DNA from: Paludibacteraceae bacterium
GTDB lineage: Bacteria > Bacteroidota > Bacteroidia > Bacteroidales > Paludibacteraceae
NCBI GenBank assembly: GCA_017509715.1
Contig: JAFWOU010000016.1
Span: 1-62,498, forward strand
Direction of reading: 5' to 3'
DNA: 62,498 bases
Part shown: piece after piece, positions 12,084 to 51,562 of the stretch
Layout of the letters: the number at the start of each line of letters is the position of its first letter
Numbering within the stretch: position 1 is the first letter of the stretch
The notes under the pieces: generated by a model
Seen by the model: only the letters and a program-made list of their open reading frames with translations
Databases searched by the model: none
What the model was told of the DNA's origin: nothing
Position numbers and translations under genes: made by a program

Positions 12084-13323
12084 TGCGTTTCCCTTGAAAA
12101 AGTTCGTATTTATTGAATCGGCAGTCGAGTTCGCCGTTCAGCAATCTGAGTTTTTTGCCCGGCTTCAGTCCGATCTGCTTCATGGCCTCTTCGTTCGACG
12201 AGATGATCCAGGCTGTTGCGCCGGTGAACTGGTGCTTGAGCGCCGTACCTATCTTGCCGTACAGCTCCAGCATATCTTTCTGCTGCGCCAGACGCTCGCC
12301 GTACGGCGGATTGATCATGACTAAGGGGTTAGTGGTTAGGGGATTAGGGGTTAAGGGGCTCAGTTCCTCCATGCGGATCTGGCGGAGCGTCACGTACTTC
12401 CCTACTCCGGCTGACTTCACGTTCTTCTCGGCTTGCCGGATAGCATAGAAGCTCGCGTCCGAACCATATATTTTATGCGCGAACGCGCGCTCACGCGTAT
12501 CATCATTATATATCTCTTCCCATAGATTGGCATCGAAATCCGGCCAACGTTCAAACCCGAACTCTTTGCGGAATATGCCGGGCGGGATGTTGAGCGCCAT
12601 CAGCGCCGCCTCGATGGGTATGGTACCCGATCCGCACATGGGGTCGTAGAGGTCGCATTGTCCTTTCCAGCCCGCCATCATCAGCATGCCGGCGGCCAGC
12701 ACTTCGCTCAGCGGGGCCTCGGTAGTGGCTACGCGATAGCCGCGTTTGTGCAGACTCTCACCACTACTGTCCAGCGATATAGTCACCTGATCCTGAGCCA
12801 CATGCACATTGATGCGCAGGTCCGGATCGGTCACCTGCACGCTCGGGCGTCGTCCCTCGCGTTCTTGCCAATAGTCGGCTATCGCGTCCTTGACGCGGTA
12901 GGTCACGTAGCGGCTGTTGCGAAGCGTGTCGCTGTAGACGGTGGCATCGATGGCAAATCGTGTCTCGGCGGTCATGTACTTGGCCCACTCGATCCGCTTC
13001 ACCATCTCATACACCTGGTCCTCCGGCTTCTGCTGTTTGTCGGAGTGCCCGGAGGCGCCTGACGGATGACGGCTGACGGCTGATTTCTGATGGCTGATGG
13101 CTGACGGCTGAAGGCTAAACACCTTCACCGGCACCAGCACACGGAGAGCGGTACGGAGCCATAGGTTTGCGGTGTAAAGCATAGCTTTATCGCCACGAAA
13201 ACTGACGGCGCGGCGCTGTATCTGCACCTCGTCGGCACCCAGTTCCGTCAGTTCCTGTGCCATCACTTCCTCCAAGCCCTTCAGGGTCTTGGCTATCATC
13301 CGATATGTTTTCTGTTCTTGCAT
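12061..13323 (-). CDS. THUMP-domain class I RNA methyltransferase (RlmL N-terminal/YpsC-like)
   Basis: A 420-aa SAM-dependent N2-guanine rRNA methyltransferase related to the first half of E. coli RlmL. An N-terminal THUMP region (residues ~5-190) is followed by the UPF0020 domain: PLSEVLAAGMLMMAGW, then LYDPMCGSGTIPIEAAL (SAM motif I) and MINPPYGERL (catalytic NPPY). Two insertions derive from tandem repeats: a SLQPSAISHQKSAVS-type segment at 13058-13118 in the THUMP part, and SPLTPNPLTTNPLV at 12321-12361 directly before NPPY, made of GGGGTTA-type units. The second abuts the catalytic strand, which is surprising if the enzyme is active. The gene starts 24 bp upstream of tRNA-Ser element B and probably continues into queA and tatD. 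Confidence 0.88.
   Translation of the reverse strand: MQEQKTYRMIAKTLKGLEEVMAQELTELGADEVQIQRRAVSFRGDKAMLYTANLWLRTALRVLVPVKVFSLQPSAISHQKSAVSRHPSGASGHSDKQQKPEDQVYEMVKRIEWAKYMTAETRFAIDATVYSDTLRNSRYVTYRVKDAIADYWQEREGRRPSVQVTDPDLRINVHVAQDQVTISLDSSGESLHKRGYRVATTEAPLSEVLAAGMLMMAGWKGQCDLYDPMCGSGTIPIEAALMALNIPPGIFRKEFGFERWPDFDANLWEEIYNDDTRERAFAHKIYGSDASFYAIRQAEKNVKSAGVGKYVTLRQIRMEELSPLTPNPLTTNPLVMINPPYGERLAQQKDMLELYGKIGTALKHQFTGATAWIISSNEEAMKQIGLKPGKKLRLLNGELDCRFNKYELFQGKRNEAHLHS
12321..12361. repeat. GGGGTTA-type tandem repeat inside RlmL-like gene
   Basis: GGGGTTAGTGGTTAGGGGATTAGGGGTTAAGGGG-like array on the plus strand, built from imperfect 7-bp units and read in frame as a Pro/Leu/Thr/Asn-rich stretch. 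Confidence 0.75.
13058..13118. repeat. GGCTGAA-type tandem repeat inside RlmL-like gene
   Basis: About eight imperfect heptamers (GGCTGAC, GGCTGAT, TTCTGAT, GGCTGAA). On the gene strand they read as a degenerate LQPSAIS-type heptapeptide. Confidence 0.8.
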
Positions 13324-13799: not shown

Positions 13800-13940
13800 G
13801 ATTTGCCTAATAACATAGCAATTACGTACTAATAACATATTTATGACATACTTATGACTATGTTATAACCTATTCATCACCTACTAATAACCTACTTATC
13901 ACCTACTAATAACCTACTTATCACCTACTAATATCATATT
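13800..13940. repeat. Intergenic 11-bp tandem repeat array
   Basis: Alternating 11-mers CTACTAATAAC and CTACTTATCAC form 22-bp units, degrading leftward into ATAACATACTTATGACATA-like copies. The gap 13602-13799 to its left shows no gene. Confidence 0.85.
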
Positions 13941-13978: not shown

Positions 13979-14050
13979 TGATTTTCGATTTTCGACTTTC
14001 GACTATCGACTTTCGACTATCGACTTTCGACTATCGACTTTCAACTTTAA
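13979..14050. repeat. TTTCGAC heptamer array
   Basis: At least eight imperfect TTTCGAC/TATCGAC/TTTCAAC units. The same family (as GTCGAAA on the gene strand) is found inside coding regions at 39212, 41108, 50160 and 51371. Confidence 0.88.
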
Positions 14051-21642: not shown

Positions 21643-23214
21643 TTGACGCTCAACAACGCAGTATGCAATTGGACTTGGGACGAAACAACGACTTACCACT
21701 GCTATGCTATTGGCGAGCGCAGTTTCATCTATAGAGGCAGCACATATAACGTCTTCAAAAACTACAAGATTTCTAACATCACTGGCAATAGTGCTGAATA
21801 TGCAGCTGTAGAAGTTCGCGTAATTGATCCTGAGAACATCATTGTAACTTCTAAAGTTAGTGCAGAATTAGCATACAATCCTACATCTGACGAAATTACC
21901 AAGGGCGAGGAGAGCAGTTGGTCTGCTCCAGCTCTTGTTAACCCACACACGGTAACGATTACTTCTTATGCTTCCGACAACGAGTCTGTAGCAACTGTTG
22001 AGGGTGGAGTAATTGCTCTCGCAGGAGGTATCGGTACTGCTCACATTACCGCTCACTTCGCTGGTAATGCTTCGTATTTCGAAGGTGATGCAGTTTATAC
22101 CATTACCGTAAATGCTCCAGCTCCGACTCCGACGAGTACCATTTACCGCAAAGTAACAGCTACAGAAGACATTACTGATGGCGAATACCTGATTGTTTAT
22201 GAAGGTGATGCTACGCACGATGCTGCTGTATTTGACGGCTCGCTTAACAATGATAATATCGACATAGCAAAGAAGGTTCTTGCTGTTGAAATCGAAAACG
22301 ACGAAATCGCAGGAAATACGGAATTGGATGCTGCGGTATTTACCATTGATGTAACAGCCGGTTCGCTGCAATCTGCAAGTGGCTTGTATATTGGTAGAAC
22401 CAATTATGATAACGGAATGGATAAGAGCACGACTGAGGCTTATGTGAACACGTTTGCCATCGCAGAAGGCGAAGCAGTGATTACCGGTGTTGGAGGTTGC
22501 ACGCTCCGCTATAACTATGCAAGCGATCAATTACGCTTCCGTTACTACAAGAGCGGTCAGAAGGCTATCCAACTCTACAAGAAAGTAGAAGATACTCCTG
22601 TAGAGCCGGAATGGGAAAACATTCGTACTGAGGAAGTTGCACCAAATGCATACTACACGATGTGTCTGGATAAGGCTGTAACTGCAGTACAGGGCGCTTC
22701 GATCTGGAAAGTAATCAGCAAGGCTCAGAACGACAAAGATGTAATCCTTGAGGAAGTAACTACTACTGTAGCAGGTCGTCCGTATATCTTCTTTGCAACA
22801 GTCGCTAATCCGCAGGTTCAGTTCACCGGCAATCCTGTAAACGGACCGGTTAACGATGCAGAAAACAATGGTCTGGTTGGTTCGTTCTCGCATGCTCTTA
22901 TTGAGAATGTTAACACCAACTACATTATTTACAACAACGAGTTGTACTACGTAAATACGGATAATGTATATGTAGGTGCTCATCGTGCGTACATTGACAT
23001 GACGAAGGTTCCGGCTTATAGTAATGAGCCGCAACAAGGCAGTGGTGCTCCGCGTCGTCGCGTAGTTATGACCGTTCATGGTGAGCAAACAGCTACCGGC
23101 ATGGAGAATGTACAAGGTGACAATGTACAATGTACAAAGGTGCTGATCGATGGTAACATCTATATCCTCCGCGGTGAGAAGATGTACGACGCAACCGGTA
23201 AATTGGTGAAATAA
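21643..23214 (+). CDS. Large secreted protein, C-terminal part after the in-frame stop
   Basis: In the same frame as the preceding 1,240 codons, so this is the rest of that gene (21622-23214) after a single TAA; reinitiation could occur at an internal codon but no signal peptide would be present. It holds an Ig-like segment (~residues 85-160), two beta-rich repeats and a C-terminal tail VLIDGNIYILRGEKMYDATG plus KLVK. The tail resembles those at 59751 and 61920 and probably directs secretion. A GTACAATGTACAAAG-type repeat (23105-23137) encodes NVQCTKV just before the tail. Pseudogene, stop readthrough or assembly error are all possible. Confidence 0.7.
   Translation: MTLNNAVCNWTWDETTTYHCYAIGERSFIYRGSTYNVFKNYKISNITGNSAEYAAVEVRVIDPENIIVTSKVSAELAYNPTSDEITKGEESSWSAPALVNPHTVTITSYASDNESVATVEGGVIALAGGIGTAHITAHFAGNASYFEGDAVYTITVNAPAPTPTSTIYRKVTATEDITDGEYLIVYEGDATHDAAVFDGSLNNDNIDIAKKVLAVEIENDEIAGNTELDAAVFTIDVTAGSLQSASGLYIGRTNYDNGMDKSTTEAYVNTFAIAEGEAVITGVGGCTLRYNYASDQLRFRYYKSGQKAIQLYKKVEDTPVEPEWENIRTEEVAPNAYYTMCLDKAVTAVQGASIWKVISKAQNDKDVILEEVTTTVAGRPYIFFATVANPQVQFTGNPVNGPVNDAENNGLVGSFSHALIENVNTNYIIYNNELYYVNTDNVYVGAHRAYIDMTKVPAYSNEPQQGSGAPRRRVVMTVHGEQTATGMENVQGDNVQCTKVLIDGNIYILRGEKMYDATGKLVK
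23105..23137. repeat. GTACAATGTACAAAG-type repeat inside the secreted protein gene
   Basis: AATGTACAAGGTGACAATGT and following ACAATGTACAAAGG; same family as in aroC and beside the four-helix gene at 28006. Confidence 0.8.
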
Positions 23215-23215
23215 G

Positions 23216-23330
23216 ATAGTCTACTAGTCAACTAGTCTACTGGAAAACTGGAGCGAAAAGGCGCAGATAGTCAACCGGTAGACTAGTCAACTAGAAGAAT
23301 AGAGAACTAGCAAACTAGAAAAATCACAAC
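23216..23330. repeat. ACTAGTC repeat array, left flank of four-helix gene 1
   Basis: Imperfect units TAGTCTACTAGTCAACTAGT and AACTAGAAGAATAGAGAACTAG lie between the secreted gene and the four-helix-bundle gene. Confidence 0.88.
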
Positions 23331-23334
23331 AGAG

Positions 23335-23895
23335 ATGACTACTCTTAATCCAGGCGGGTTTCTAATTCATCCGGGAGGATATCGCAACTTGGTCTGCTAC
23401 AAGAAGAGCGTTATACTATACGATATGACGATCTACTACATAGACAAGTACCTCCAGCCTTCGGACCGGACGTACGGTCAAATGCAGCAAGCAGCGCGTT
23501 CCGGAAAGCAGAATATCGTTGAGGGATTAGAGGATAAGATGACATCTACCGATACGGGGTTACATTTGGTCAATGTGGCCCGCGGAAGTCTGCAAGAGTT
23601 ACGCGAGGACTACGAAGACCAGTTGCGATCCAACCGCCTCCAATTATGGACACGTGAGCACGAACGATTTGGCAAGATGCTGCAGTTCTGCGCAACGCAT
23701 AATGAGGTAGAGGACTACGCACCTTACTACGAGAAATGGGATAAGGAGACATTCTGCAACACAGCGCTGACGCTGATTCATCAGACGGATAAAGGGTTGA
23801 TGACGTTGTTGCAGAAGATGGAAGCGGAGTTCTTGGAAGAAGGCGGAGTGAAAGAGCGAATGTTCGCCGCTCGGAAAGATAGGAGAGGATTTTGA
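23335..23895 (+). CDS. Four-helix-bundle protein (23S rRNA intervening-sequence superfamily, suffix-domain type)
   Basis: A 186-aa helical protein. RTYGQMQQAARSGKQNIVEG is the signature of the S23/IVP superfamily (Q-x-x-R-A/S-x-x-S-x-x-x-N-I-x-E-G), and LVNVARGSLQELREDYEDQL is the second conserved helix. The extra C-terminal part (NTALTLIHQTDKGLMTLLQKMEAEFLEEGGVKERM) matches the four-helix-bundle suffix domain. Members are small nucleic-acid-binding bundles related to the Avd protein of diversity-generating retroelements; most have no known function. Both flanks carry ACTAGTC repeats, suggesting this protein and that repeat form a unit. Confidence 0.85.
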   Translation: MTTLNPGGFLIHPGGYRNLVCYKKSVILYDMTIYYIDKYLQPSDRTYGQMQQAARSGKQNIVEGLEDKMTSTDTGLHLVNVARGSLQELREDYEDQLRSNRLQLWTREHERFGKMLQFCATHNEVEDYAPYYEKWDKETFCNTALTLIHQTDKGLMTLLQKMEAEFLEEGGVKERMFAARKDRRGF

Positions 23896-23935
23896 TAGTC
23901 AACTAGTCTACTAGTCAACTAGAATACTAGAAAAC
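23894..23935. repeat. ACTAGTC repeat array, right flank of four-helix gene 1
   Basis: AGTCAACTAGTCTACTAGTC then AACTAGAATACTAG, starting at the stop codon. Confidence 0.9.
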
Positions 23936-23958
23936 AACGAAGCAAAATAATATCAGAT

Positions 23959-24105
23959 ATGAAAAAGATTTATAATCAACCGACTGTTACTACGGTCAAC
24001 CTCATGGGAGGATCTGTAATGCAGGCTGCAAGTCCCGGTGCACTCGTAAATAGCGGTTCCGGAACAGGAAGCATCGGCACCGGTGACCCGATCACCGGTA
24101 ATTAA
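23959..24105 (+). CDS. Small secreted-like or precursor peptide (48 aa)
   Basis: Starts KKIYNQPTVTTVNLMGGSVM and ends TGDPITGN. Start rich in Lys/Tyr followed by a V-x-L stretch is common among small Bacteroidales orphan proteins; LMGGS resembles a double-glycine leader and the rest is Gly/Ser/Thr-rich. A strong terminator follows about 70 bp downstream, supporting expression. No family recognised. Confidence 0.55.
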   Translation: MKKIYNQPTVTTVNLMGGSVMQAASPGALVNSGSGTGSIGTGDPITGN

Positions 24106-24173
24106 TCACCCTGCACCCTACAGTGACGTACGCGATGGTCGCGAGATAGTCGCGTTCGTCTCTGGCGAAACAT

Positions 24174-24201
24174 CCAAAGGCAGCTTCACGGCTGCCTTTG
24201 G
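24174..24201 (+). terminator. Terminator after the 48-aa peptide gene
   Basis: 11-bp hairpin CCAAAGGCAGC/GCTGCCTTTGG with loop TTCACG, then TGTGGTTTT. The remaining 24202-24453 gap holds no gene that I can see. Confidence 0.8.
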
Positions 24202-24323
24202 TGTGGTTTTAGAAATGCGCAAAATTTTCAAATAATTTGAAATTTTCCGCAAAAGCCTTGTATATTTCAAATATATTGTAACTTCGAGGGCACCGACACG
24301 CAAGCGTCCCACCTCGAATTTAG

Positions 24324-24369
24324 TTCTTAGCCCAGAGGGCACGATTATTTCTTAGCCACAAGGGCACGA
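24324..24369. repeat. 25-bp direct repeat pair
   Basis: TTCTTAGCCCAGAGGGCACGA is repeated as TTCTTAGCCACAAGGGCACGA 25 bp later; possibly another dispersed repeat family. Confidence 0.6.
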
Positions 24370-24453
24370 AATCTTCGCACTGTTGTGCAAACTCCAATCT
24401 TTAGCCGTAAAACACAAATTATGCAAGCATTTTTGATTTTTTACGTCTAAATC

Positions 24454-24484
24454 TTGCAAATTTGAAAAATTTGTTGTAATTTTG
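24454..24484 (+). promoter_or_regulatory. aroC promoter
   Basis: TTG (24454-24456), 20 bp, TAATTTTG (24477-24484). About 55 bp around it is nearly identical to the promoter of the secreted amylase gene (minus strand, 61811-61865). Confidence 0.82.
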
Positions 24485-24507
24485 CAGCGTCAAAGGTAAA
24501 CGAAACA

Positions 24508-25635
24508 ATGAACTCCTTTGGAGACACATGGACATTCACCAGCTTCGGCGAGTCACACGGACTCGCCGTTGGCGGTGTATTGGACGGTGTGCCGGCAGGA
24601 CTGCATATCGACCTTGCGCTGATTCGCTCCGAGTTGGAGAGACGAGCAGGAAAGGTACAAAGTGACGATGTACAATGTACAAAGGGAGTTTCTCCGCGCG
24701 CAATGCGTGAGCCCGACGAAGTCGAGTGGCTATCAGGAGTCATAGAAAAGGGACAAAGTGACAATGTACAATGTACAAAGTATAAGGGACAAAGTGACAA
24801 TGTACAATGTACAAAGTATAAGGGACAAAGTGACAATGTACAATGTACAAAGGACCAAGGGACAAAGTATAAGGGACAAAGTGACAAAGTACAAAGTGAC
24901 AATGTACAATGTACAAAGGAGTTGGTGACCCTCGGTACGCCGATCGCGTTTATTATACGGAATAAGGACGCACGACCGGAGGACTACGAATACTTGCGTC
25001 ACACCTACCGCACCGGACACGCCGACCGCGTCTATGAGCAGAAATACGGCATTCGTGACTGGAGAGGCGGCGGACGGGCCTCCGCTCGCGAGACCGCAGC
25101 ACGCGTCGTAGCCGGTTGTATCGCTAAGCAGGAGTTGGCCGCCAAAGGTATCTCTATCCATGCCTCGCTCGTGCAGGTAGGCGCCGAGACCGACCCTACC
25201 CGCTTCGCCGACACTATCGCCCGCTACCAGCAAGACGGCGACTCGATAGGTGGCATTGTAGCGTGCCGGATCACGGGCCTCCCCGTCGGCACAGGTGAAC
25301 CCATCTTCGACAAACTGCAAGCCCATCTCGCCTATGCCGTCATGAGCATCAATGCCTGCAAGGGCTTTGAGTACGGCACAGGTTTCGGCGGGGTTACAGA
25401 GCCCGGCTCGGCCATCAATCATATCTCAGGCGGTATCTCCGGAGGCATCGCAGACGGAACAGACGTCACGTTTCGCTGCGTCTTCAAACCCACCCCCTCC
25501 ACGCCCAAAGCCCTGATGGAAGTGACAAAGGGACAAGGTACGATGTACAAAGGAAGACACGACGCGTGTGTTGCCACTCGCGCCGTGCCTGTCGTAGAAG
25601 CCATGACGGCTTTAGCACTCGTTAATCTTATTTAA
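24508..25635 (+). CDS. aroC: Chorismate synthase AroC with repeat-encoded insertion
   Basis: Converts EPSP to chorismate using reduced FMN. Family blocks are intact: FGESHGLAVGGVLDGVPAG at the start (catalytic His), RPEDYEYLRHTYRTGHADRVYEQKYG, RDWRGGGRASARETAARVVAG (FMN/phosphate binding), GGISGGIADG, and KGRHDACVATRAVPVVEAM (second catalytic His). The unusual part is a stretch of about 55-60 residues replacing the short loop before TLGTPIAF: it consists of tandem SDNVQCTKYKGQ units encoded by GTACAATGTACAAAG-type repeats (24751-24919). Smaller pieces occur at 24653-24684 and 25521-25553. Frame is kept at all three sites. The enzyme is essential for aromatic synthesis, so it is probably still active. 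Confidence 0.93.
   Translation: MNSFGDTWTFTSFGESHGLAVGGVLDGVPAGLHIDLALIRSELERRAGKVQSDDVQCTKGVSPRAMREPDEVEWLSGVIEKGQSDNVQCTKYKGQSDNVQCTKYKGQSDNVQCTKDQGTKYKGQSDKVQSDNVQCTKELVTLGTPIAFIIRNKDARPEDYEYLRHTYRTGHADRVYEQKYGIRDWRGGGRASARETAARVVAGCIAKQELAAKGISIHASLVQVGAETDPTRFADTIARYQQDGDSIGGIVACRITGLPVGTGEPIFDKLQAHLAYAVMSINACKGFEYGTGFGGVTEPGSAINHISGGISGGIADGTDVTFRCVFKPTPSTPKALMEVTKGQGTMYKGRHDACVATRAVPVVEAMTALALVNLI
24751..24919. repeat. GTACAATGTACAAAG tandem array inside aroC
   Basis: Four or more units of GGACAAAGTGACAATGTACA plus ATGTACAAAGTATAA; the largest in-gene array in the window. Confidence 0.95.
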
Positions 25636-25668
25636 CCACAACCGGCTCGTATTTCGGAACGAGACTCT

Positions 25669-25805
25669 TCTTATCTCGTTGCACTCGAACGATTATTTTA
25701 GTACCACTGCCTTGTGCTTGGGTACTAAAATCTTCTTATCTCGGGATAAACCCTCGAACGATTATTTTAGTACCACTGCCTTGTGCTTGGGTACTAAAAT
25801 CTTCA
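25669..25805. repeat. Tandem duplication of the exuT-like gene 3' end
   Basis: Two ~65-bp copies of TCTTCTTATCTCG... followed by ...CGAACGATTATTTTAGTACC and the rest of the last transporter codons. Each copy contains the inverted repeat TTTTAGTACC/GGTACTAAAA, which may act as terminator. Confidence 0.85.
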
Positions 25806-27198
25806 TCACCGTCCAACCGATCAGGTAAGCTACTGCACAGATACAGAAGATGATCATGTAGCCTGCGGGCTTACCGCTGAAGCCCATAAACTGGAAGGCT
25901 TCGCCCATCTTGTCGGCATGCGTGAACAGCATACCCGAACCCTTGTTGATCAGGAACGAACCTACACCACCGGCCATCGCTCCGATACCCGTGATCGTAG
26001 CTACTGCCGATTTGGGGAACATATCACCCGTGGTGGAGAAGATGTTAGCAGACCAAGATTGGTGTGCTGCACCTACGATACCGATAATGATAGCCACTGC
26101 CCACGGACCATACATACCGCCCAGAGGCTGTGCAAACAATGCAAACAGCGGGAAGAACGCAAAGATCAACATGGCACGCATACGGCCTGCGTACGGCTCC
26201 ATACCATGCTTCTCAACAAAGATCTTAGGCAGGTAGCCGCCAAACAGCGATACCACCGTCACGATAGCATACAGCGTGAAGATCAGCGCGATACCCTGCG
26301 GGTCACTGGCCTTGATACCATACTGATCCTGGAAATAAGCCGGTGCCCAGAAGAGGAAGAACCACCATACACCGTCCGTCATGAACTTACCAAACGCAAA
26401 CGACCAAGTCTGTTTGTGCTTGAAAGCCTCGGCAAACGACATCTGCTTCTCCTCCTTAGCCTCCTCCTTCGGAGCGTCTTTCTCATCCTGGTGGATATAC
26501 TCGAGCTCAGCCTCATTCACGTGCTTCGACTCCGTCGGTTTGTCATACACAAAGATCCAGATACCGGCCCATACAAAGCCCAGCGCACCGATGATGATGA
26601 ATGCCCACTCCCAGCCAAGACTCTTAGCCAGCAGAGGTATAGTAGCCGGAGCAGCCAACGCACCTACCGAAGCACCTGCGTTGAACAATGCCGTTGCAAA
26701 CGCGCGGTCCTTCTTCGGGAAGTACTCGGCCGTCACCTTGATAGCAGCGGGGAAGTTACCGGCCTCACCAAGTCCCAAGATCAGACGGCAAGCCAGGAAC
26801 AGCCATACACTAATCATCGATATCGAAGCCGCAATAGCACCCGTGGCATTCAGCAGCGCAGCCTTGTCGGCTACACCTACGATATGCTCGGTCACCCATC
26901 CGCAGCCGGCGTGCATTACCGCACCTACCGACCAGATCACGATGGCCCACAGGTAGCCCTTCTTCGTACCCATCCAGTCGATAAACTTACCGGCAAAGAG
27001 GCAGAAGATAGCATACGCGATCGAGAACACACCCGTGATCGTTCCGTAGTCGGAGTCGGTCCAGTGGAACTCGGGTTGAATAAACTCCTTGAAGGTCAAC
27101 GACAGCACCTGACGGTCCATGTAGTTAACCGTAGTGGCGAAGAAGAGCATCGCACACATGACCCAACGCCAGTTGGTCATAATTTCTTTTTTACTCAT
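25762..27198 (-). CDS. exuT: MFS hexuronate transporter (ExuT-like)
   Basis: A 478-aa major facilitator protein with about twelve hydrophobic segments; imports glucuronate/galacturonate. Start chosen at ATG 27198 (SKKEIMTNWRWVM); the frame extends 20 codons further upstream, but those codons are repeat-derived sequence. YMDRQVLSLTFKEFIQPEF, GLGEAGNFPAAIKVTAEYFP and the GTKKGYLWA loop match the anion:cation symporter family that contains ExuT. A charged loop (EEAKEEKQ) separates the halves. It is last in the minus-strand cluster uxaC-kdgK-eda-exuT. The gap to eda contains a GTACAATGTACAAAG-type repeat. Confidence 0.88.
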   Translation of the reverse strand: MSKKEIMTNWRWVMCAMLFFATTVNYMDRQVLSLTFKEFIQPEFHWTDSDYGTITGVFSIAYAIFCLFAGKFIDWMGTKKGYLWAIVIWSVGAVMHAGCGWVTEHIVGVADKAALLNATGAIAASISMISVWLFLACRLILGLGEAGNFPAAIKVTAEYFPKKDRAFATALFNAGASVGALAAPATIPLLAKSLGWEWAFIIIGALGFVWAGIWIFVYDKPTESKHVNEAELEYIHQDEKDAPKEEAKEEKQMSFAEAFKHKQTWSFAFGKFMTDGVWWFFLFWAPAYFQDQYGIKASDPQGIALIFTLYAIVTVVSLFGGYLPKIFVEKHGMEPYAGRMRAMLIFAFFPLFALFAQPLGGMYGPWAVAIIIGIVGAAHQSWSANIFSTTGDMFPKSAVATITGIGAMAGGVGSFLINKGSGMLFTHADKMGEAFQFMGFSGKPAGYMIIFCICAVAYLIGWTVMKILVPKHKAVVLK

Positions 27199-27211
27199 AA
27201 AAAACAAATTT

Positions 27212-27243
27212 AAGTACAAAGTGACAAAGTACAATGTACAATT
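27212..27243. repeat. GTACAATGTACAAAG-type repeat between eda and exuT
   Basis: AAGTACAAAGTGACAAAGTA followed by CAATGTACAATT. Confidence 0.85.
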
Positions 27244-27245
27244 TA

Positions 27246-27911
27246 TTACTTGCGGCAAGCCGCGATGATTTCAAAGCACTCGCGGCACTTGTCGGTCACG
27301 TATTTCCAGTCACCGGCTTTTACCTTGTCGGACGGGAAGAGCTTGCTTCCCATACCTACACAGTAAACACCTGCGGCGAACCATTTCTCCAGGTTCTCTT
27401 TCTCCGGAGCTACGCCACCCGTTACCATGATTTTCGACCAAGGCATCGGCGCCATGAGACCCTTCACCAGGTTCGGACCTACTACATCACCCGGGAAGAC
27501 CTTGGTAAAGTCGCAACCTACTTCCTGTGCCAGACCGATCTCGCTCGGTGTGAGGCAACCCGGACAGTAAGTCACGCAACGACGGTTGCAGACAACTGCG
27601 ATATCCTTGTTGAACAACGGACCTACTACAAAGTTAGCGCCCAGCTGCAAGTACAGCGAAGCCGTCGGAGCATCTACTACACTACCGATACCGAGTGCCA
27701 ATTCCGGGCACTCAACAGCTACCCACTTGCTCAGTTCGCCGAACACCTCGTGGGCGAAATCGCCACGGTTGGTGAACTCGAACGCGCGTACGCCGCCTTC
27801 GTAACATGCCTTAATCACGTTCTTGCAAACTTCCACATCTTTGTGGTAGAACACAGGAACCATCGGAGCCTGTGCTATTTTCGCCATAACGGCGAATTTA
27901 TCGAACCTCAT
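27246..27911 (-). CDS. eda: 2-dehydro-3-deoxyphosphogluconate aldolase (KDPG aldolase)
   Basis: Splits KDPG into pyruvate and glyceraldehyde 3-phosphate, the last step of hexuronate breakdown. 221 aa. [32 protein letters not shown] (catalytic Glu) and [20 protein letters not shown] (Schiff-base Lys) are visible, with [25 protein letters not shown] binding phosphate. It is flanked on both sides by GTACAATGTACAAAG repeats, the upstream array overlapping its start codon region. Confidence 0.92.
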
Positions 27912-28000
27912 AAATGTACAATTTTACGATGTACAATGTACAAAGGCCTAAGGATGTACAATTTTACGATGTACAATGTACAATGGCCATTGGATGTACA
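27911..28000. repeat. GTACAATGTACAAAG array, downstream flank of four-helix gene 2
   Basis: ATGTACAATTTTACGATGTA and CAATGTACAAAGGCCTAAGG, repeated about twice, between eda and the four-helix gene. Confidence 0.9.
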
Positions 28001-28005
28001 TCTGG

Positions 28006-28368
28006 TTATTCTTTGTTAATTGATTTTTTTGTTGATACTATTGCAGCGACAGTGATACTCAGTAACTCGGAACATTCCTGGATAATATCTCGCATTCTAT
28101 CTTCCGGTAGAATTTGGCAATCCACAATTAGCTCCAACCAATGTAACGTCTCGTCTAACTCTTCTTCAACCATCTTGAGTTTATTGATAAAGTCCTTTTC
28201 TGACTTTGCAATACAAGCTGCTCTGTAATTGGCAGATGGAGATGTGCCCGATCTTATTACCTGGCGTGCTATGGCAGCGGACGAAATGGTATTAGGCATG
28301 GCATCCACCATCCGTACCACACGGATGGCGAAAGCTTTATGCCGTTGTTTCAGTTCGTCTTTGTCCAT
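28006..28368 (-). CDS. Four-helix-bundle protein (23S rRNA intervening-sequence family)
   Basis: A 120-aa protein of the S23/IVP family. KAFAIRVVRMVDAMPNTISS starts helix 1; ARQVIRSGTSPSANYRAAC is the signature; SEKDFINKLKMVEEELDETLHWLELI is the third helix. Family members were found as ORFs in 23S rRNA insertions, and the fold is shared with DGR Avd proteins. It interrupts the hexuronate operon between kdgK and eda. Both flanks hold GTACAATGTACAAAG-type repeats, starting directly at the start codon on the upstream side. It lacks the suffix domain of the other two copies. Confidence 0.9.
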   Translation of the reverse strand: MDKDELKQRHKAFAIRVVRMVDAMPNTISSAAIARQVIRSGTSPSANYRAACIAKSEKDFINKLKMVEEELDETLHWLELIVDCQILPEDRMRDIIQECSELLSITVAAIVSTKKSINKE

Positions 28369-28408
28369 TTCCTTTGTACATTGTACATTGTCACTTTGTC
28401 ACTTCAAT
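28368..28408. repeat. GTACAATGTACAAAG array, upstream flank of four-helix gene 2
   Basis: Minus-strand AAGTGACAAAGTGACAATGT then ACAATGTACAAAGG, filling the whole gap between kdgK stop and this gene. Confidence 0.92.
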
Positions 28409-29434
28409 TTATCTCTGAACACGTCCATTTGCGTTGCCGCCGGCAAGCGAGAGGACTTCATCCTCGCTGACGAGGTTATAGTCGCCGTTGATGGTGTGCT
28501 TCAGTGCCGAAGCAGCAACTGCAAACTCAAGAGCTGATGCCTGGTCACCCGGATACTTGAGCATACCATGGATCAGACCGCCGGAGAACGAGTCACCACC
28601 ACCTACGCGGTCGATGATCGGGTTGATCTCGTAGCGTTTGGATTGATAGAACTCCTTGCCGTTGTAGATCATCGCCTTCCAGCCGTTGAACGTAGCGCTG
28701 TAGCTCTCGCGAAGCGTCGAAACAACATACTTGAAACCGAACTCTTTCATCATCTGCTCGAAGATACCCTTGTAGCCTTCGGCATTGGTCTCGCCGCCTT
28801 CTACATCTGCATCGGGCTTGAAACCGAGGCAAAGCTCTGCGTCTTCCTCGTTTCCGATACAAACATCTACGTACTTCATCAACGGACGCATGATGGAGAT
28901 AGCCTTCTCGCTGGTCCAGAGTTTCTTGCGGAAGTTCAGGTCAACCGATACGGTTACACCGTGACGCTTAGCAGCCTCGCAAGCGAGTTTGGTGATCTCT
29001 GCAGCCTTGTCCGAGATAGCCGGCGTAATACCGCTCCAGTGGAACCAAGCTGCACCTTCCATGATCTTGTCGAAGTCAAAATCCTTCGGATCAGCCTCTG
29101 CGATAGCCGAGTGAGCACGGTCGTAGATGACCTTCGACGGACGCATCGAAGCACCTGTCTCGCAGTAGTACAGACCTACGCGGTCACCGCCACGAACGAT
29201 ATAATCGTCCTTCACGCCATAACGGCGCAGCGAGTTAACGGCAATCTGACCGATCTCATGTTTCGGCAGTTTCGTTACCAAATACGCCTCGTGTCCATAG
29301 TTAGCGCACGAGATAGCTACGTTAGCCTCACCACCACCGGGGATGATACGGAAATGATCAGACTGAATGAAACGATCTTGTCCTTCCGGACTCAGGCGAA
29401 GCATAATCTCGCCCAACGTAATAATTTTAGCCAT
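28409..29434 (-). CDS. kdgK: 2-keto-3-deoxygluconate kinase (PfkB family)
   Basis: Phosphorylates KDG to KDPG in hexuronate catabolism. 341 aa. PfkB signatures: GGGEANVAISCANYGHEAYLV near residue 33 and the ATP/catalytic block IDRVGGGDSFSGGLIHGML near residue 270 with the catalytic Asp. MLRLSPEGQDRFIQ near the start is typical of KdgK. Assignment to KDG rather than another sugar rests on its position between uxaC and eda. The 38-bp gap to the next gene is entirely repeat sequence. Confidence 0.9.
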   Translation of the reverse strand: MAKIITLGEIMLRLSPEGQDRFIQSDHFRIIPGGGEANVAISCANYGHEAYLVTKLPKHEIGQIAVNSLRRYGVKDDYIVRGGDRVGLYYCETGASMRPSKVIYDRAHSAIAEADPKDFDFDKIMEGAAWFHWSGITPAISDKAAEITKLACEAAKRHGVTVSVDLNFRKKLWTSEKAISIMRPLMKYVDVCIGNEEDAELCLGFKPDADVEGGETNAEGYKGIFEQMMKEFGFKYVVSTLRESYSATFNGWKAMIYNGKEFYQSKRYEINPIIDRVGGGDSFSGGLIHGMLKYPGDQASALEFAVAASALKHTINGDYNLVSEDEVLSLAGGNANGRVQR

Positions 29435-29491
29435 AGATCTAAAAATTAAATGATTTATATTGTTGTTAGTTATTGTTTTGCTTTTTTATTC

Positions 29492-29588
29492 TCTTTCGAT
29501 ATTTCGATATTTCGGTATTTCGGTATTTCGATATGTCGGCCCTCCTTCCGATATTTCGATTTATCGATATCTCGATATCTCGGTCTTT
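29492..29588. repeat. TCGATATT array, downstream flank of four-helix gene 3
   Basis: About ten imperfect 8-bp units (TCGATATT, TCGGTATT, TCGATATC); one further copy is inside tatD at 10229-10256. Confidence 0.92.
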
Positions 29589-30328
29589 TATATCTTCCTT
29601 GTCCCGCGACACTCCGGATAACCGCTGCAACTCCAGAACTCTTTCCCGGAATTAACCCCTTTCTTCGCAACCCGTTTGATCATCGGCTTCCCGCATTCGG
29701 GGCATAGAGGCGCGTTCTCCTCGGCACTCTTCTCTGCTCTATGCTGTAGCCTCTCTGCCGTAAGTGCCTCCGTAAAACCTCCTTCTTCCTTAAAATCTCC
29801 TAATAGCATCTCTATCTGCTTCTGAATCATCATAATCAACCTGTTACATAAGATGAGCACACAATTTGCCGCAACTACAGAATCCTCCGTCTCTAACCAC
29901 TCATCGAACTTATGTTTCTGTTTCAATATATGCGCGCTACTCTCGTGCATCACATCATCCGTGTACTCCGGCGGATCAAAAGGAATATTATACACACGCT
30001 TGTATGCCTGCGATTTGTCCGACCATGGTATCTGTTCCGCGTGCATCAACCAATTGGCATAATCGCTCATCAACTCTGCTATGCTCGCGCGCGCCACATC
30101 GGTCAACTTCATCTCCGTCTCTTTGGAGGTCGAATGCCGCGAGTTACCCTCGGCGATATTTGCCACACCCGAACGTGCAGCTTGTGTCATTTGGTCAAAT
30201 TGTCTTCCGCACGGGTCATTCTTCAGGTTCAGGAACTTCTTGCAAAACTCCTGTGTTGCCAACTGAATAACATTCGCTACCACCCAAGTATTCAACCAGA
30301 AATATCCAAATCGCCGTATCTTCAGCAT
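29588..30328 (-). CDS. Four-helix-bundle suffix protein with C-terminal zinc ribbon
   Basis: A 246-aa protein. FDQMTQAARSGVANIAEGN is the superfamily signature; LTDVARASIAELMSDYANWL is the second block; the suffix-domain helix follows (ANCVLILCNRLIMMIQKQIE, then EEGGFTEALT). The last ~45 residues form a topoisomerase-type zinc ribbon, CPECG-x5-R-x12-FWSCSGYPECRG, a DNA-binding module. The fusion supports a role in binding DNA or its cognate repeat. Both flanks hold TCGATATT repeats. It sits between kdgK and a small membrane protein within the hexuronate cluster. Confidence 0.88.
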   Translation of the reverse strand: MLKIRRFGYFWLNTWVVANVIQLATQEFCKKFLNLKNDPCGRQFDQMTQAARSGVANIAEGNSRHSTSKETEMKLTDVARASIAELMSDYANWLMHAEQIPWSDKSQAYKRVYNIPFDPPEYTDDVMHESSAHILKQKHKFDEWLETEDSVVAANCVLILCNRLIMMIQKQIEMLLGDFKEEGGFTEALTAERLQHRAEKSAEENAPLCPECGKPMIKRVAKKGVNSGKEFWSCSGYPECRGTRKI

Positions 30329-30395
30329 AGTATTGTTTTATAATGTTGTTTATTATTTTCTTTCTATTTCTATTTTGTCTTTGCGTTTCTGTCCC

Positions 30396-30575
30396 TTCGA
30401 TATATCGATATTTCGATATGTCGATATGTCGGCTATCTGTTCGATTTATCGATTTCTCGATATTTCGATATATCGGTTTCTTCTCATCCCTCCTGTTTCC
30501 CTTTCGCTATCCCGCTTCCTCTATCAAGTCCCCTTCGATATCCCGATATATCGATATTTCGATCTGTCGGTCTCT
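30396..30575. repeat. TCGATATT array, upstream flank of four-helix gene 3
   Basis: Two blocks (30396-30480 and 30531-30575) of imperfect TCGATATT/TCGATATG/TCGATTTA octamers separated by a T/C-rich stretch. Confidence 0.92.
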
Positions 30576-39097: not shown

Positions 39098-40105
39098 ATG
39101 ACCAACAAGGAGCGATACAGCGCGTGGTGCGAGCAGATAGGCAACGTGCCGCTCATGATGCAACCATGGTGGATGGATGCCGTATGCGCCGGCAAGGAGT
39201 GGGACGTGCTATTAGTCGAAAGTCAAAAGTCGAAAGACGAAAGCCGGAGTGCCTCTGGAGTCGAAAATGCAGATAGCCAGGCCGAGCCCAAGATCCTGGG
39301 CGCGATGCCATACCTGATTCGCAAGCGGCTGGGACAGAAGTACATTCTGATGCCCCAGCAGACGCAGGTAGGCGGTATATGGGTCGACCCATCCATCACC
39401 GACAACCGATGGGAGATATCCCGAGTATGCCAGTCCATCGAGGCGCAACTCAAGCAGATGCACCTCAGCTACTACTACCAGCAGTACCCTATCGGTAGCC
39501 TGCCTGCGGAAGCTATGCGCGGGCTGGGATTTCGTCTGCGCGAACGCATCACCTACCGCATCGACTTCCTCAACGACATTGACCAGATCATCGGTTCGTT
39601 CAGCAAGAACAAGCGACGCCAACTGCAGAAAGCCGCTTCGCTCACGGCCGATACCCAACTGACGGCTGAAGACTTCTATCGCTTCCATACACACTGTCTC
39701 GCTGCGCAACACAAGCACATCAGTTATACACGCGAGTTTTTGCTGGTACTTGAGCGCAAAGCGCGCCGTCTGGGACAATGCGAGATACTATCGATCCGCA
39801 ACCTGGAAGGTGAGGTATATGCCGCCGCCTTCCTGGTATGGGATCGCACCACGATGTACTACCTCATCCCATGCTACGATCCAGCTTACAAGGACTCCGG
39901 CGCCTCGTCGCTGCTGGCACTTGAGGCGATTAAGTTGGCGCACCGCAAGCACCTCTCGTTCGACTTCGAGGGCTCGATGGATAGCGGCGTAGCCAAGCAC
40001 TATAGCCAGTTTGGCACCACCCCCACGCGCTACTATGGCGTAGAGAAATGTTATCACCCGCTCTTCCGCCTTGCCCTGTGGTGGCAGAAGATTAGAGAGA
40101 GGTGA
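39098..40105 (+). CDS. FemAB/GNAT-like acyltransferase
   Basis: A 335-aa protein of the GNAT fold seen in FemAB-like and polysaccharide-related acetyltransferases: FSKNKRRQLQKAASL, FYRFHTHCLAAQHKHI, and the C-terminal motif ASSLLALEAIKLAHRKHLSFDFEGSMDSGVAKHYSQFG, where the F-D-F-E-G-S-M block is typical. Substrate unknown. A VESQKSKDES stretch (39212-39247) is encoded by GTCGAAA-type repeats in the N-terminal third. It starts directly after ssb and precedes two glycosyltransferases, suggesting an envelope role. Confidence 0.8.
   Translation: MTNKERYSAWCEQIGNVPLMMQPWWMDAVCAGKEWDVLLVESQKSKDESRSASGVENADSQAEPKILGAMPYLIRKRLGQKYILMPQQTQVGGIWVDPSITDNRWEISRVCQSIEAQLKQMHLSYYYQQYPIGSLPAEAMRGLGFRLRERITYRIDFLNDIDQIIGSFSKNKRRQLQKAASLTADTQLTAEDFYRFHTHCLAAQHKHISYTREFLLVLERKARRLGQCEILSIRNLEGEVYAAAFLVWDRTTMYYLIPCYDPAYKDSGASSLLALEAIKLAHRKHLSFDFEGSMDSGVAKHYSQFGTTPTRYYGVEKCYHPLFRLALWWQKIRER
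39212..39247. repeat. GTCGAAA repeat inside the acyltransferase gene
   Basis: GTCGAAAGTCAAAAGTCGAA then AGACGAAAG: imperfect 7-bp units in frame. Confidence 0.85.
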
Positions 40106-40158
40106 GAGGTTACGGGTTACGGGTTACAGGTTACAGGTTACAGGTTACAGGTTACGGG
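40104..40158. repeat. GGTTACA tandem array before glycosyltransferase
   Basis: About seven units of GGTTACG/GGTTACA between the acyltransferase stop and the GTG start of the next gene. Confidence 0.92.
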
Positions 40159-40164
40159 ATATAG

Positions 40165-41214
40165 GTGAAAGTTCTATTTTTGACACCTTGGTATCCGTCC
40201 CCCAAGGACGCGATGAGCGGACTCTTTGTGCAGAAGCACGTAGAGGCTGTTCGTGCGCAGGGTGTGGATGTGCGGGTCATTCATTCCCAGACCCACATGG
40301 ACACCTTCCGCCAATACCGGGCGCTGCAGAAAGAAGGTTGGAAACCGGATATCGTGCAACTCAACGTCATTCAGAAGCAGGGCCTCTTGGCGCTTGCCCT
40401 CTGGCAGCACGAGCACATCCCATATATCATCCTGGAGCACTGGAGCGGCTACCTGCCTGAGAACGGCGCCTTCCTTCGCATGCCGGCCTGGAAGCAACGT
40501 CTCTACCGGCGTATCGCCCGTGAAGCACGTATGATCCTCACGGTGAGCGAACGCCTGGGCCAAGCCATGCGCGAATGCGGCATCCGCAATGCCCAATGGG
40601 GACAGATCCACAACGTAGTGGATGACTTCTTCTTTGAGAATCAGAAGATTCAGAGTATTCCGAATAATCAGATTAATCAGAAGGCGCTCCTTCATGTCTC
40701 CTGCTTCGACGAGCAGGCCAAGAACCTCAAGGGCTTGCTACGGGCCGCCAAGATGCTCTCCGAGCGACGCCAAGATTGGCAACTCGTGCTCGTTGGTACG
40801 GGCGTTGATTATCAGGATGTACGCACCTACGCTGACGCGCTCGACATCCCGGAAAGCTTGCTGCGATGGACCGGTGAACTGACGCCGCGCCAGGTGGCCG
40901 AAGAGATGCGCAGGGCTGACGCGCTGGTACTCTCCAGCCGCTACGAGACATACGGCGTCGTGTTGGCCGAAGCGGTTGCGGCAGGTCTACCAATTCTCTC
41001 TACACCCGTCGGCATCGCCGAAGAGGTGGCCGACCTCATCGTACCCCAAGAGATAGCCCAGCACAAAGCCGGCACCTTTGCAGAGTTCATAGAGACCATA
41101 TTGTTTAGAGTCGAAAGTCGAAAGGCGAAAGTCGAAAGCGATCGATTTACGTCGGAGGCTGTGGGAAAGGCACTAAAAGAAGCATATGATTGCTGTTTGC
41201 ATTGCGACATATAA
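40165..41214 (+). CDS. Family 4 glycosyltransferase
   Basis: A 349-aa GT-B glycosyltransferase of the GT4 type. GTG start at 40165 (KVLFLTPWYPSPKDAMSGLFV) fits the family N-terminus; the bases upstream are GGTTACA repeats. C-terminal donor-binding part: VSCFDEQAKNLKGLLRAAKML, then E-x7-E motif in SSRYETYGVVLAEAVAAGLPIL. Two repeat-derived segments: NQKIQSIPNNQINQ (40638-40682) between the two Rossmann domains, and VESRKAKVES (41108-41140) near the C-terminus. Probably works on surface polysaccharide with the next gene, which it overlaps by 29 bp. Confidence 0.9.
   Translation: MKVLFLTPWYPSPKDAMSGLFVQKHVEAVRAQGVDVRVIHSQTHMDTFRQYRALQKEGWKPDIVQLNVIQKQGLLALALWQHEHIPYIILEHWSGYLPENGAFLRMPAWKQRLYRRIAREARMILTVSERLGQAMRECGIRNAQWGQIHNVVDDFFFENQKIQSIPNNQINQKALLHVSCFDEQAKNLKGLLRAAKMLSERRQDWQLVLVGTGVDYQDVRTYADALDIPESLLRWTGELTPRQVAEEMRRADALVLSSRYETYGVVLAEAVAAGLPILSTPVGIAEEVADLIVPQEIAQHKAGTFAEFIETILFRVESRKAKVESDRFTSEAVGKALKEAYDCCLHCDI
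40638..40682. repeat. AATCAGA-type repeat inside GT4 gene
   Basis: AATCAGAAGATTCAGAGTAT then TCCGAATAATCAGATTAATCAG; the same family fills the korA-korB gap (50465-50509). Confidence 0.8.
41108..41140. repeat. GTCGAAA repeat inside GT4 gene
   Basis: Imperfect heptamers GTCGAAA/GGCGAAA near the 3' end, read as VESRKAKVES. Confidence 0.85.
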
Positions 41215-50474: not shown

Positions 50475-50509
50475 TCAGAGTAATCTGAGTAGTCTGAATA
50501 ATCTGAGAT
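50465..50509. repeat. AATCTGAGT repeat between korA and korB
   Basis: ATCTGAGTAATCAGAGTAAT and CTGAGTAGTCTGAATAATCTGAG fill the gap, overlapping the last codons of korA. Confidence 0.9.
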
Positions 50510-50512
50510 ATT

Positions 50513-51562
50513 ATGGAAGCAAGTCAATTCAAATCAGATCAATACGTACGTTTCTGTCCGGGATGCGGTGACCATGCCATCTGCATGGCCCTGCAGAAAG
50601 CGATGGCCCAGATCGGGATACCTACCCATCAAGTGGCTGTGGTATCGGGTATCGGTTGTAGTAGCCGTATGCCGCACTACCTGAACACCTACGGATTCAA
50701 CACCATACACGGTCGTGGCGGTGCAATCGCTACGGGCGTCAAGACCAGCCATCCGGAGCTGACCGTCTGGCAGATGTCGGGCGACGGCGATTGCCTGGCT
50801 ATCGGCGGAAACCATTTTATTCACGAGATACGCCGCAACGTGGACCTGAACGTCTGCATGTTCAACAACCGCATCTACGGCCTGACGAAAGGTCAGTACT
50901 CGCCCACAAGTGCCAAGGGCTTTGTGAGCAAGTCGAGTCCGTTCGGTACGGTGGAGCGTCCGTTCGTACCGGCACAACTGGTGCTGGGCGCGAGAGGTAC
51001 ATTCTTTGCCCGCACGCTGGACGTAGATATGCCGACCACGGTGGATTGTCTCGTGGCTGCACAGCAGCATAAGGGATGCTCTATTGTAGAGTGTCTGGTG
51101 AACTGCGTGATCTTCAACAACGGTACTCACGCCTGGATTGCTGACCGCGAAGAGCGCGCTGAGCATAGCATCGTGCTCAAGCATGGCGAGAAGATGATTT
51201 TCGGTAAGAATCGGGACAAGGGCCTCACCGTAGAGATCGATCCGCAGACCTTCGTGCCGAAGATGATCGTAGTGCCGGCCGATGACCCGCGCGTCCTCGT
51301 GCACGATGCCACCCAACTCGATCCGACGCTCCACCGCCTGCTGGCGCTGATGGGACAAGATCGATATCTCGAAGTCGAAAGTCAAAAGTCGAAAGTCGAA
51401 AGCGAAAATGACGACCTGCCGGTAGCGCTGGGCGTGATACGCAACGTGGAGGCAGAGACCTACGACCATGCCGTGAGTCGCCAGATAGCCGAGGTGCGCG
51501 ACCGAGCTAAGGCCCACTGCTTTGACGAACTGACAGAAACGCTGGAGAGTTGGACCCTATGA
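50513..51562 (+). CDS. korB: 2-oxoacid:ferredoxin oxidoreductase, beta subunit
   Basis: TPP-binding subunit, 349 aa. YVRFCPGCGDHAICMALQKAM at the start; GIGCSSRMPHYLNTYGFNTIHGRGG; TPP motif MSGDGDCLAIGGNHFIHEIRRN and FNNRIYGLTKGQYSPTSAKG. A VESQKSKVESEN stretch (51371-51406) derived from GTCGAAA repeats lies near the C-terminus, mirroring the one in korA. It follows korA after a 38-bp repeat-filled gap; its stop overlaps the DedA start (ATGA). Confidence 0.95.
   Translation: MEASQFKSDQYVRFCPGCGDHAICMALQKAMAQIGIPTHQVAVVSGIGCSSRMPHYLNTYGFNTIHGRGGAIATGVKTSHPELTVWQMSGDGDCLAIGGNHFIHEIRRNVDLNVCMFNNRIYGLTKGQYSPTSAKGFVSKSSPFGTVERPFVPAQLVLGARGTFFARTLDVDMPTTVDCLVAAQQHKGCSIVECLVNCVIFNNGTHAWIADREERAEHSIVLKHGEKMIFGKNRDKGLTVEIDPQTFVPKMIVVPADDPRVLVHDATQLDPTLHRLLALMGQDRYLEVESQKSKVESENDDLPVALGVIRNVEAETYDHAVSRQIAEVRDRAKAHCFDELTETLESWTL
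51371..51406. repeat. GTCGAAA repeat inside korB
   Basis: AAGTCGAAAGTCAAAAGTCG then AAAGTCGAAAGCGAAAA, in frame. Confidence 0.85.

Follow-up and report, generated by a model that had tools for sequence, protein, structure and literature searches.

Introduction

Why should each gene of one small-protein family lie between two tandem arrays of a short repeat that seems to be its own? The question is raised by a stretch of 62,498 nucleotides (hereafter the window) from a Paludibacteraceae bacterium of the order Bacteroidales (assembly GCA_017509715.1, contig JAFWOU010000016.1, positions 1 to 62,498), whose genome, G000, comprises 2.38 Mb in 42 contigs and is 100% complete. Three window genes, called here 23335, 28006 and 29588 after their first coordinate, encode proteins of the S23/IVP four-helix superfamily. 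A sequence-only reading of the window had proposed that each protein is paired with the repeat bracketing its gene and may spread or maintain it, as the transposases called RAYT do for repetitive extragenic palindromes (REP). The present analysis has confirmed the bracketing as a real observation, broader than that reading had it, and there is good support for each protein being paired with its repeat. In the explanation favoured here, which is held with a confidence slightly better than even, such a gene is framed by two arrays of a 7-10-nt unit of its own, gene and arrays recur together at unrelated genomic sites, and the bundle protein, predicted to bind nucleic acid, likely reads the repeat and helps it to spread.

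Proteins of the window genes

Profile searches have revealed that each of the three proteins exceeds the cut-off of at least one of the family profiles PF05635, TIGR02436 and TIGR04258, which bears out their assignment to the superfamily. The 28006 protein exceeded the cut-offs of PF05635 and TIGR02436, and the 29588 protein those of TIGR04258, TIGR02436 and PF01396, the latter being the topoisomerase-type (Top1) zinc ribbon already recognized in the first reading. The 23335 protein exceeded the TIGR04258 cut-off and was just short of that of TIGR02436 (score 23.4, cut-off 24); the PF05635 cut-off was missed by both 23335 and 29588 proteins. With PF05635, eight matches of E 0.001 or lower were found in G000, three of them above the cut-off. 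Neither a catalytic domain nor a HUH/Y1 match was found in the three proteins with the Pfam and NCBIfam profiles.

The AlphaFold2 model of the 28006 protein consists of four helices, and that of the 23335 protein is mainly helical, with extra helices (pLDDT values in Table 1). When the 28006 model was compared with solved structures by Foldseek, the best match was 2rld (E 4e-6 to 2e-5, TM 0.82-0.85), followed by 2gsc and the bAvd structure 4dwl (E 0.003-0.07; TM of 4dwl about 0.75); 8ub7 is also similar in fold. The 28006 protein is thus predicted to be a four-helix bundle resembling 2rld, 2gsc and Avd, and the likeness to the Avd proteins of diversity-generating retroelements (DGR) noticed earlier stands for this protein.

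Family genes are bracketed by their own repeats

The arrays on both sides of the three window genes were confirmed with Tandem Repeats Finder (TRF) and partly by eye (Table 1). For the wider count, 132 open reading frame (ORF) matches in 121 loci were reduced to 101 distinct family genes, each flanked by 100 bp or more on either side, 90 from the same genus and 11 from other families of Bacteroidales; loci L004, L023 and L034 yielded no family ORF. A gene was considered bracketed when at least three 8-mers were common to both 150-bp flanks. By this measure 63 of the 101 family genes were bracketed, against 163 of 1160 control ORFs taken from eight genomes of the genus in stretches of 20 kb and not matched genome by genome, and against 64 of the 278 controls with both spacers of at least 80 bp. 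When the downstream flanks were shuffled among the family genes (200 rounds), the mean fell to 8.2% and the maximum to 15.8%. Start codons were partly chosen by rule and some are plainly wrong (e.g. L009, L013, L017); this brings the family score down. In G000 and its relatives, both flanks of most family genes contain a short degenerate tandem array, the unit of which is gene-specific.

The same pattern was found outside the genus. A set of named loci, the best 80 of at least 591 matches in a scan of one genome per species, belongs mainly to Bacteroidota, with others from Planctomycetota, Pseudomonadota, Acidobacteria, KSB1 and Ignavibacteriae, many of them metagenome-assembled genomes (MAGs). 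One locus was left out because its flank was too short, and at least one other (L338) duplicates a gene of the first set (L079). Among these best 80 matches, 56 of the 79 with usable flanks were bracketed. The corresponding figures were 47 of 204 for neighbouring genes (Fisher p 2.4e-13), 22 of 105 for those neighbours at a distance above 200 bp, and 8.4 of 79 after shuffling. Ten of 14 loci taken from the 29 plasmid records with a match, a sample with no control set, were also bracketed (9 of 13 cyanobacterial loci and the Azospirillum one). Inverted heptamers, AGGGAGT and AGGGAAC for example, make up these plasmid arrays, and on Nostoc and Calothrix plasmids the units bracketing the family genes are of the AGGGAGT, AGGGAAC and AGGGTGT types. 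No family match was found in phage records, searched with one query protein. Chance or regional base composition as the cause of the bracketing is ruled out by the shuffles and controls, and an assembly artefact is unlikely because complete plasmids show the same bracketing.

Three of the cyanobacterial plasmid genes with heptamer-type arrays (L450, L451, L456) lie among cas genes, between cas6 and cas4 or between cas10/cmr2 and cmr3, which fits the presence of the family in cas loci reported in the part of PMC3936711 used here.

Units follow the protein at unrelated sites

The relation between protein and unit was then analysed in non-syntenic pairs, defined as genes without homologous neighbours within 1.5-2.5 kb, unit sharing being an overlap above 0.1. 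Among pairs with at least 70% protein identity, 24 of 41 (38 genes) share units, and below 40% identity 1.7% do so. Protein identity and unit overlap in non-syntenic pairs gave a Mantel r of 0.119 (null standard deviation 0.013, maximum 0.045 in 1000 permutations). In each of the 41 close pairs, DNA similarity is lost no further than 100 bp from the gene, a result that is partly built in, because the pairs were picked for lacking homologous neighbours, and that is not to be weighed alone. A block of 743 bp in G000 and G030, however, contains the gene and about 100 bp per side, is 96.5% identical and lies in unrelated surroundings; direct copies of a GAAAGTGC...-type sequence, common across the genus, are found at both of its ends. 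The gene and its arrays can therefore appear jointly at new sites.

Unit length, orientation and polarity depend on the protein class

Proteins were classified by motif or, for the suffix type, by a length of at least 150 aa. Of 180 genes, 177 encode 100 aa or more, and 172 of the latter had enough repeated 7-mers. A 7-nt unit was found in 126 of the 153 scored flanks of the two short classes (PSNIAEG, 91/116; SGTSxGAN, 35/37) and in none of the 40 flanks of the other two named classes, where the unit measures 8, 9 or 10 nt (suffix class, 33/33 flanks) or 8 or 10 nt (SIMDNIAEG class, 7/7). The nine genes left unclassified showed 7 nt in 4 of 9 flanks. The Fisher p of 1e-23 for unit length against class is only indicative, because flanks are not independent.

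Orientation also differs between types. The arrays of short-type genes (n=154) are inverted in 70 cases and direct in 28, with one tie and 55 genes having too few shared 8-mers, and those of suffix-type genes (n=23) are direct in 15 and inverted in 3. For proteins below 150 aa, read on the coding strand, G exceeds C in 67 and C exceeds G in 17 of 89 upstream arrays, and downstream C exceeds G in 65 and G exceeds C in 12 of 80. No polarity was found in suffix-type arrays.

A fixed strand polarity in the short type, together with arrays that adjoin start and stop codons, is what would be expected if the arrays were binding sites in the untranslated regions of mRNA, through which the protein regulates its own gene and, by the dispersed arrays, other transcripts, the arrays growing by ordinary slippage and recombination under regulatory selection. 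Translational regulation has indeed been proposed for the TAACTGA heptamers by MacGregor in 2015 (PMC4679880, in the sections drawn on here). This explanation is considered rather unlikely. The recurrence of gene and arrays at unrelated sites stands against it, as do the positions and the variability of the arrays in close relatives, described below.

One spacer and one coding gene compared among relatives

The spacer between a sugar kinase and an aldolase gene has been compared in the window genome and its relatives. In G000 it holds a family gene with GTACAAT arrays, and in G018 a family gene with GTACCAAG arrays, the proteins being 74% identical. A copy of the gene whose frame is disrupted close to the start, accompanied by ATTTACC-type arrays, is present in G008, gene-less inverted pairs of ATTTACC type, about 15 and 24 nt apart by eye, in G002 and G010 respectively, and a solo array in G009. 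Other array types occupy the spacer in G003, G015, G001 and G022, another ORF in G004, and in G011 it is plain and short. The array type thus differs at one orthologous spacer among close relatives, a point against regulation.

Arrays are also found within coding genes. The aroC gene (chorismate synthase) carries in-frame arrays in three loops, of GTACAAT type in G000 (segments of 33, 183 and 42 nt) and of GTACCAAG type in G018 (42, 96 and 54 nt); the same loops measure 9-12 nt in G004 and G006, and further genomes have other insertions. In G000 and G018 the inserts match the unit version of each genome's own family gene, and by eye their edges often fall on a few matching bases (AAAGG). The scattered GTACAAT copies at 24653, 24751, 25521 and 23105 that the sequence-only reading had listed are present, and are to be placed inside aroC (the first three, in frame) or another ORF. 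Among the 47 GTACAAT places in G000, 30 have a locus and 20 of these 30 are ORF-internal, six in aroC, by a crude longest-ORF rule under which at least one place (L044) is spurious; this too argues against binding sites in untranslated regions.

Dispersal of the units and density of arrays

The sequence GTACAATGTACAAAG, with up to one mismatch, occurs at 47 places in G000 (mirrored control, 0). It was found in 18 of 37 genus genomes, with G000 the highest (18), and in none of 24 others. Exact copies of CTAGTCNACTAG number seven in G000, four of them at the gene itself, compared with five for the mirrored control; this sequence was found in 15 of 61 genomes, with 41 copies (control, 1) in G035, whose syntenic orthologue carrying the unit (L020) encodes a 95% identical protein. 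The sequence TCGATATTTCGATA was found in 10 of 37 genomes searched, with seven copies in G000, three of them at the gene. Its distribution is independent of the gene, and genomes in which no TIGR04258 gene was found contain it as well (G001, 8 copies; G002, 5; G021, 5; G010, 4). Equal abundance of arrays in genomes lacking the cognate protein had been named beforehand as a result that would refute the first reading, and it was observed for this one of the three families.

A more general comparison was carried out with 200 kb from each of eight genomes, the stretches themselves containing no detected family gene. For 35 of the 41 genes of the seven gene-bearing genomes (those with at least two repeated 10-mers), the units of a gene tended to be most abundant in its own genome, whose mean rank was 1.86, against 3.49 expected and 2.23 as the lowest of 2000 permutations. 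The comparison of flank units with dispersed arrays of the same genome, which the first reading had called for, gave a value above that of shuffled pairing, since 52 of 363 arrays were matched by units of own genes and 15.7 by units of other genomes. Array density was 25 per 100 kb in the seven gene-bearing genomes (356 arrays in 1.4 Mb) and 5.5 per 100 kb in four genomes without a detected gene (16 in 0.29 Mb, three of these genomes being sampled over just 30 kb). The more family genes a genome has, the higher its array density (Spearman 0.89, p 2.6e-4, n=11), in non-random stretches and uncorrected for phylogeny or MAG completeness.

These results bear on whether polymerase slippage alone makes the arrays, into which the genes would have been carried as passengers through homologous recombination. 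For heptamers at large, a proposal of slippage is found in the passages of PMC4692102 consulted, and random arrays too have relatives in their own genome. However, slippage fails to predict a unit length set by protein class, units that follow the protein non-syntenically, the polarity, or the relation of density to gene number, and we regard it as quite unlikely to be the whole account. The pairing of protein and repeat is well supported by five comparisons: own against shuffled flanks, units at non-syntenic sites, unit length by subfamily, dispersal in the own genome, and density against gene number. This part of the sequence-only reading is upheld.

For the spread of the repeat by the protein, which we infer from there on, a number of observations weigh on the other side. 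Two of the three window families show either weak dispersal or dispersal without the cognate gene: the ACTAGTC unit is barely dispersed in G000, and the dispersal of TCGATATT is equal in genomes without a detected cognate. GTACAATGTACAAAG is present as well in G012, G023 and G036, three genomes that yielded no family gene. The own genome ranked strictly first for only 13 of the 35 genes, with low ranks for L002, L008, L005 and L031; 311 of the 363 arrays (86%) match no detected gene of their genome, and G007 (0/44) and G032 (1/35) lie below their shuffled means. The number of relatives in the genome is no lower for random arrays than for gene units (mean 1.8 vs 1.3). The lack of correction in the density test counts here as well, and two of the gene-less genomes with 30 kb show 13.3 arrays per 100 kb, about the value of the gene-bearing G002 (13.5). 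On cyanobacterial plasmids the own unit was the highest in two of five. The 13-mer GCTGTTGGCTGTT, searched in 25 of the 79 named genomes, gave copies in eight, too few to be informative (G063, 9 with a mirrored control of 5; G061 and G062, 4 each, of which 3 and probably 4 are at the gene; G068, 3; four others, 1 each); these comprise 4 of the 8 genomes with that unit and 4 of the 17 without it, and few copies are off the gene. Unit sharing at 50-70% protein identity drops to 7-9% of non-syntenic pairs, and a clean target-site duplication was not seen at either end of the 743-bp block. Finally, both binding of the array and its mobilisation are steps that we infer.

A possible mechanism and enzymes that might act in trans

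The favoured mechanism likely follows a REP/RAYT-like logic without a catalytic domain recognized by profile libraries. The protein would form a pentameric ring like those of 2rld, 2gsc and Avd. Avd has been solved as a pentamer, and the 2rld entry contains five chains; the S23p protein of Xanthomonas was solved as a ring, according to the part of PMC4990558 used here. Such a ring may bind single-stranded RNA or DNA of its own array, in a register of 7 nt for the short type and 8-10 nt for the suffix type. The chemistry would be left to host replication or repair, in which units would be added or copied through annealing or a switch of template, and the matching bases at the edges of the aroC inserts would suit annealing. 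Through base pairing between inverted G-rich and C-rich arrays, a transcript or single strand could close on itself around the gene, in the manner of the paired ends of 23S rRNA intervening sequences (IVS).

In an alternative to this scheme, the four-helix protein would be an accessory to a known enzyme that carries out the reaction, either a reverse transcriptase, as in DGRs, or a RAYT acting in trans. Among the matching solved structures are bAvd and a DGR ribonucleoprotein (E about 0.02), and G000 has one Y1_Tnp match over the cut-off, a 252-aa ORF (E 2.8e-8). The RVT_1 profile, however, had no match in six genomes (G000, G007, G014, G032, G034, G035), so that a general need for reverse transcriptase was rejected, and Y1_Tnp had none in G002, G014, G015, G033 and G034, with 4-7 family genes each, although this model misses some. 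A likely Y1 ORF of G018 reached only E 0.013, which means that divergent RAYTs can escape the Pfam model; this lowers the confidence in the favoured explanation and raises that in an enzyme acting in trans, which nevertheless is judged very unlikely.

The ORF in question encodes 415 aa (L215:2758-4005, minus strand) and is located beside the kinase gene of G018, in the spacer that holds the zinc-ribbon gene in the window genome. It has an MPDHLHLLLF motif, a Y1_Tnp score below the cut-off and GC-rich repeats, and by its sequence it is possibly a divergent RAYT element in a comparable place.

Relation to known systems

A REP/RAYT element consists of a gene for an HUH/Y1 transposase flanked by its own repeats, often inverted, with imperfect palindromic units of 20-40 nt and dispersed copies. 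The system described here resembles it in the single gene flanked by its own repeats, in dispersed copies without a gene (weak for two window families) and in inverted pairs with a short spacer, such as those of G002 and G010. It differs in that the proteins have no HUH/Y1 match, the units are tandem and of 7-10 nt in most scored flanks, and arrays are inserted in frame in coding genes. The REP/RAYT-like proposal of the first reading is therefore retained as a likeness in logic; membership is not, because of the missing HUH/Y1 match and the mostly helical models.

The IVS of 23S rRNA genes encode proteins of the same family (S23p), and their ORF lies within terminal inverted repeats (a 28-bp stem in the description consulted in PMC4990558), as is the case for the inverted arrays prevailing in the short type. 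In contrast, the suffix type is mostly direct, the family genes are located in operon spacers and the arrays in spacers or coding genes, the window genes lying between protein-coding ORFs, and the boundaries are tandem arrays with an own unit for each gene. The same text credits Ralph and McClelland with the idea that the IVS ORF takes part in mobility. The first description of the IVS ORF of PF05635 dates from 1993, and the parts of PMC4990558 used here still give the function of the family as unknown. The family is also reported in CRISPR-linked genes and in insertions of rRNA genes of the candidate phyla radiation (PMC10910872, PMC11270868, in the sections drawn on).

Published heptamers, namely the short tandemly repeated repetitive (STRR) sequences of cyanobacteria, TAACTGA of Beggiatoaceae and GGGAATC/GGGGATT of Xanthomonas and Nostoc, are likewise 7-nt tandem units, dispersed and mostly intergenic. 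The units of the plasmid genes are heptamers of similar style. In the accessible portions of PMC4679880 and PMC4692102, heptamer repeats are described without an agreed mechanism. Unlike the present case, no four-helix protein is linked to them in the portions of the literature examined: family terms are absent from the main text of PMC4679880, and such proteins are not mentioned in the passages and discussion of PMC4692102 that were covered. No paper joining S23/IVP proteins to repeats was found, most subscription papers and all preprints being outside the search. With DGRs the resemblance lies in the Avd-like fold; several gene-rich genomes, G000 among them, lack an RVT_1 match, and the 28006 protein scores 17 on NF033474, for which the cut-off is 80.

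A wider proposal is offered tentatively, with somewhat less than even confidence: genes of this family would be widespread selfish cassettes in which a non-catalytic, ring-forming four-helix protein reads a 7-10-nt register on single-stranded nucleic acid and causes host polymerases to copy the tandem units to new places, and cyanobacterial STRRs, the unexplained excess of heptamers in bacteria and the IVS of 23S rRNA would be products or relics of them. This would give the large family PF05635 a testable job and provide a candidate driver for short tandem repeats of cyanobacteria, Beggiatoaceae, Xanthomonas and Bacteroidetes that have no agreed mechanism, and could explain short bacterial repeats that have been puzzling for decades. 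If a fixed 7-nt register is read, the family would be a natural library of proteins paired with likely target sequences, because most family genes carry their own unit alongside.

Other features of the window

Coordinates of the genes, arrays and cassette are collected in Table 1.

Table 1. Family genes, arrays and related features, in window coordinates unless a locus is given.
Feature	Position	Strand	Basis or remark
186-aa four-helix protein with TIGR04258 suffix domain	23335..23895	+	profiles, AlphaFold2 pLDDT 89.3
120-aa four-helix protein (PF05635/TIGR02436)	28006..28368	-	profiles, AlphaFold2 pLDDT 95.8, Foldseek
246-aa four-helix suffix protein with C-terminal Top1 zinc ribbon	29588..30328	-	profiles
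ACTAGTC-type arrays, upstream of 23335	23217..23322	+	TRF 23217-23249, 23289-23322; 8/16-nt unit
ACTAGTC-type array, downstream of 23335	23896..23935	+	TRF 23896-23930, 8/16-nt unit
GTACAAT array, 7-nt unit, upstream of 28006	28369..28408	-	by eye
Array downstream of 28006, inverted relative to the upstream one	27913..28000	-	TRF, 7/40 nt
TCGATATT arrays, upstream of 29588	30396..30575	-	TRF 30396-30475 (8 nt); about 30534-30568 by eye
TCGATATT array, downstream of 29588	29494..29582	-	TRF, 8 nt
GTACAAT array in frame, aroC loop 1	24653..24684	+	
GTACAAT array in frame, aroC loop 2	24748..24918	+	segment 183 nt vs 9 nt in G004/G006
GTACAAT array in frame, aroC loop 3	25521..25552	+	
GTACAAT copy in frame in ORF 21643-23214	23105..23139	+	
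GTACAAT array, 5' end of major facilitator superfamily (MFS) transporter gene	27212..27241		
Dispersed AGGTTAC array	40100..40166		by eye, unit bracketing another G000 family gene (G000:C28:97721)
Near-identical 743-bp cassette	L172:1973-2713 and L021:996-1738		

The ACTAGTC copies claimed at 34166 and 59667 turned out to be CTAG arrays of 9-nt period and not clean copies. Arrays of other families are present in the window at 13059-13116, 13827-13933, 13983-14048, 39214-39243, 41109-41138, 50160-50190, 50464-50507, 51372-51407 and 59827-59858, with the units CTGACGG, an 11-nt unit, TTTCGAC, AGTCGAA (four times) and TTGGTAC; by eye, no G000 family gene with a matching flank was found for them. 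A 25-nt repeat, TTAGTTCTTAGCCACAAGGGCACGA, is present in two copies upstream of aroC (24320-24369).

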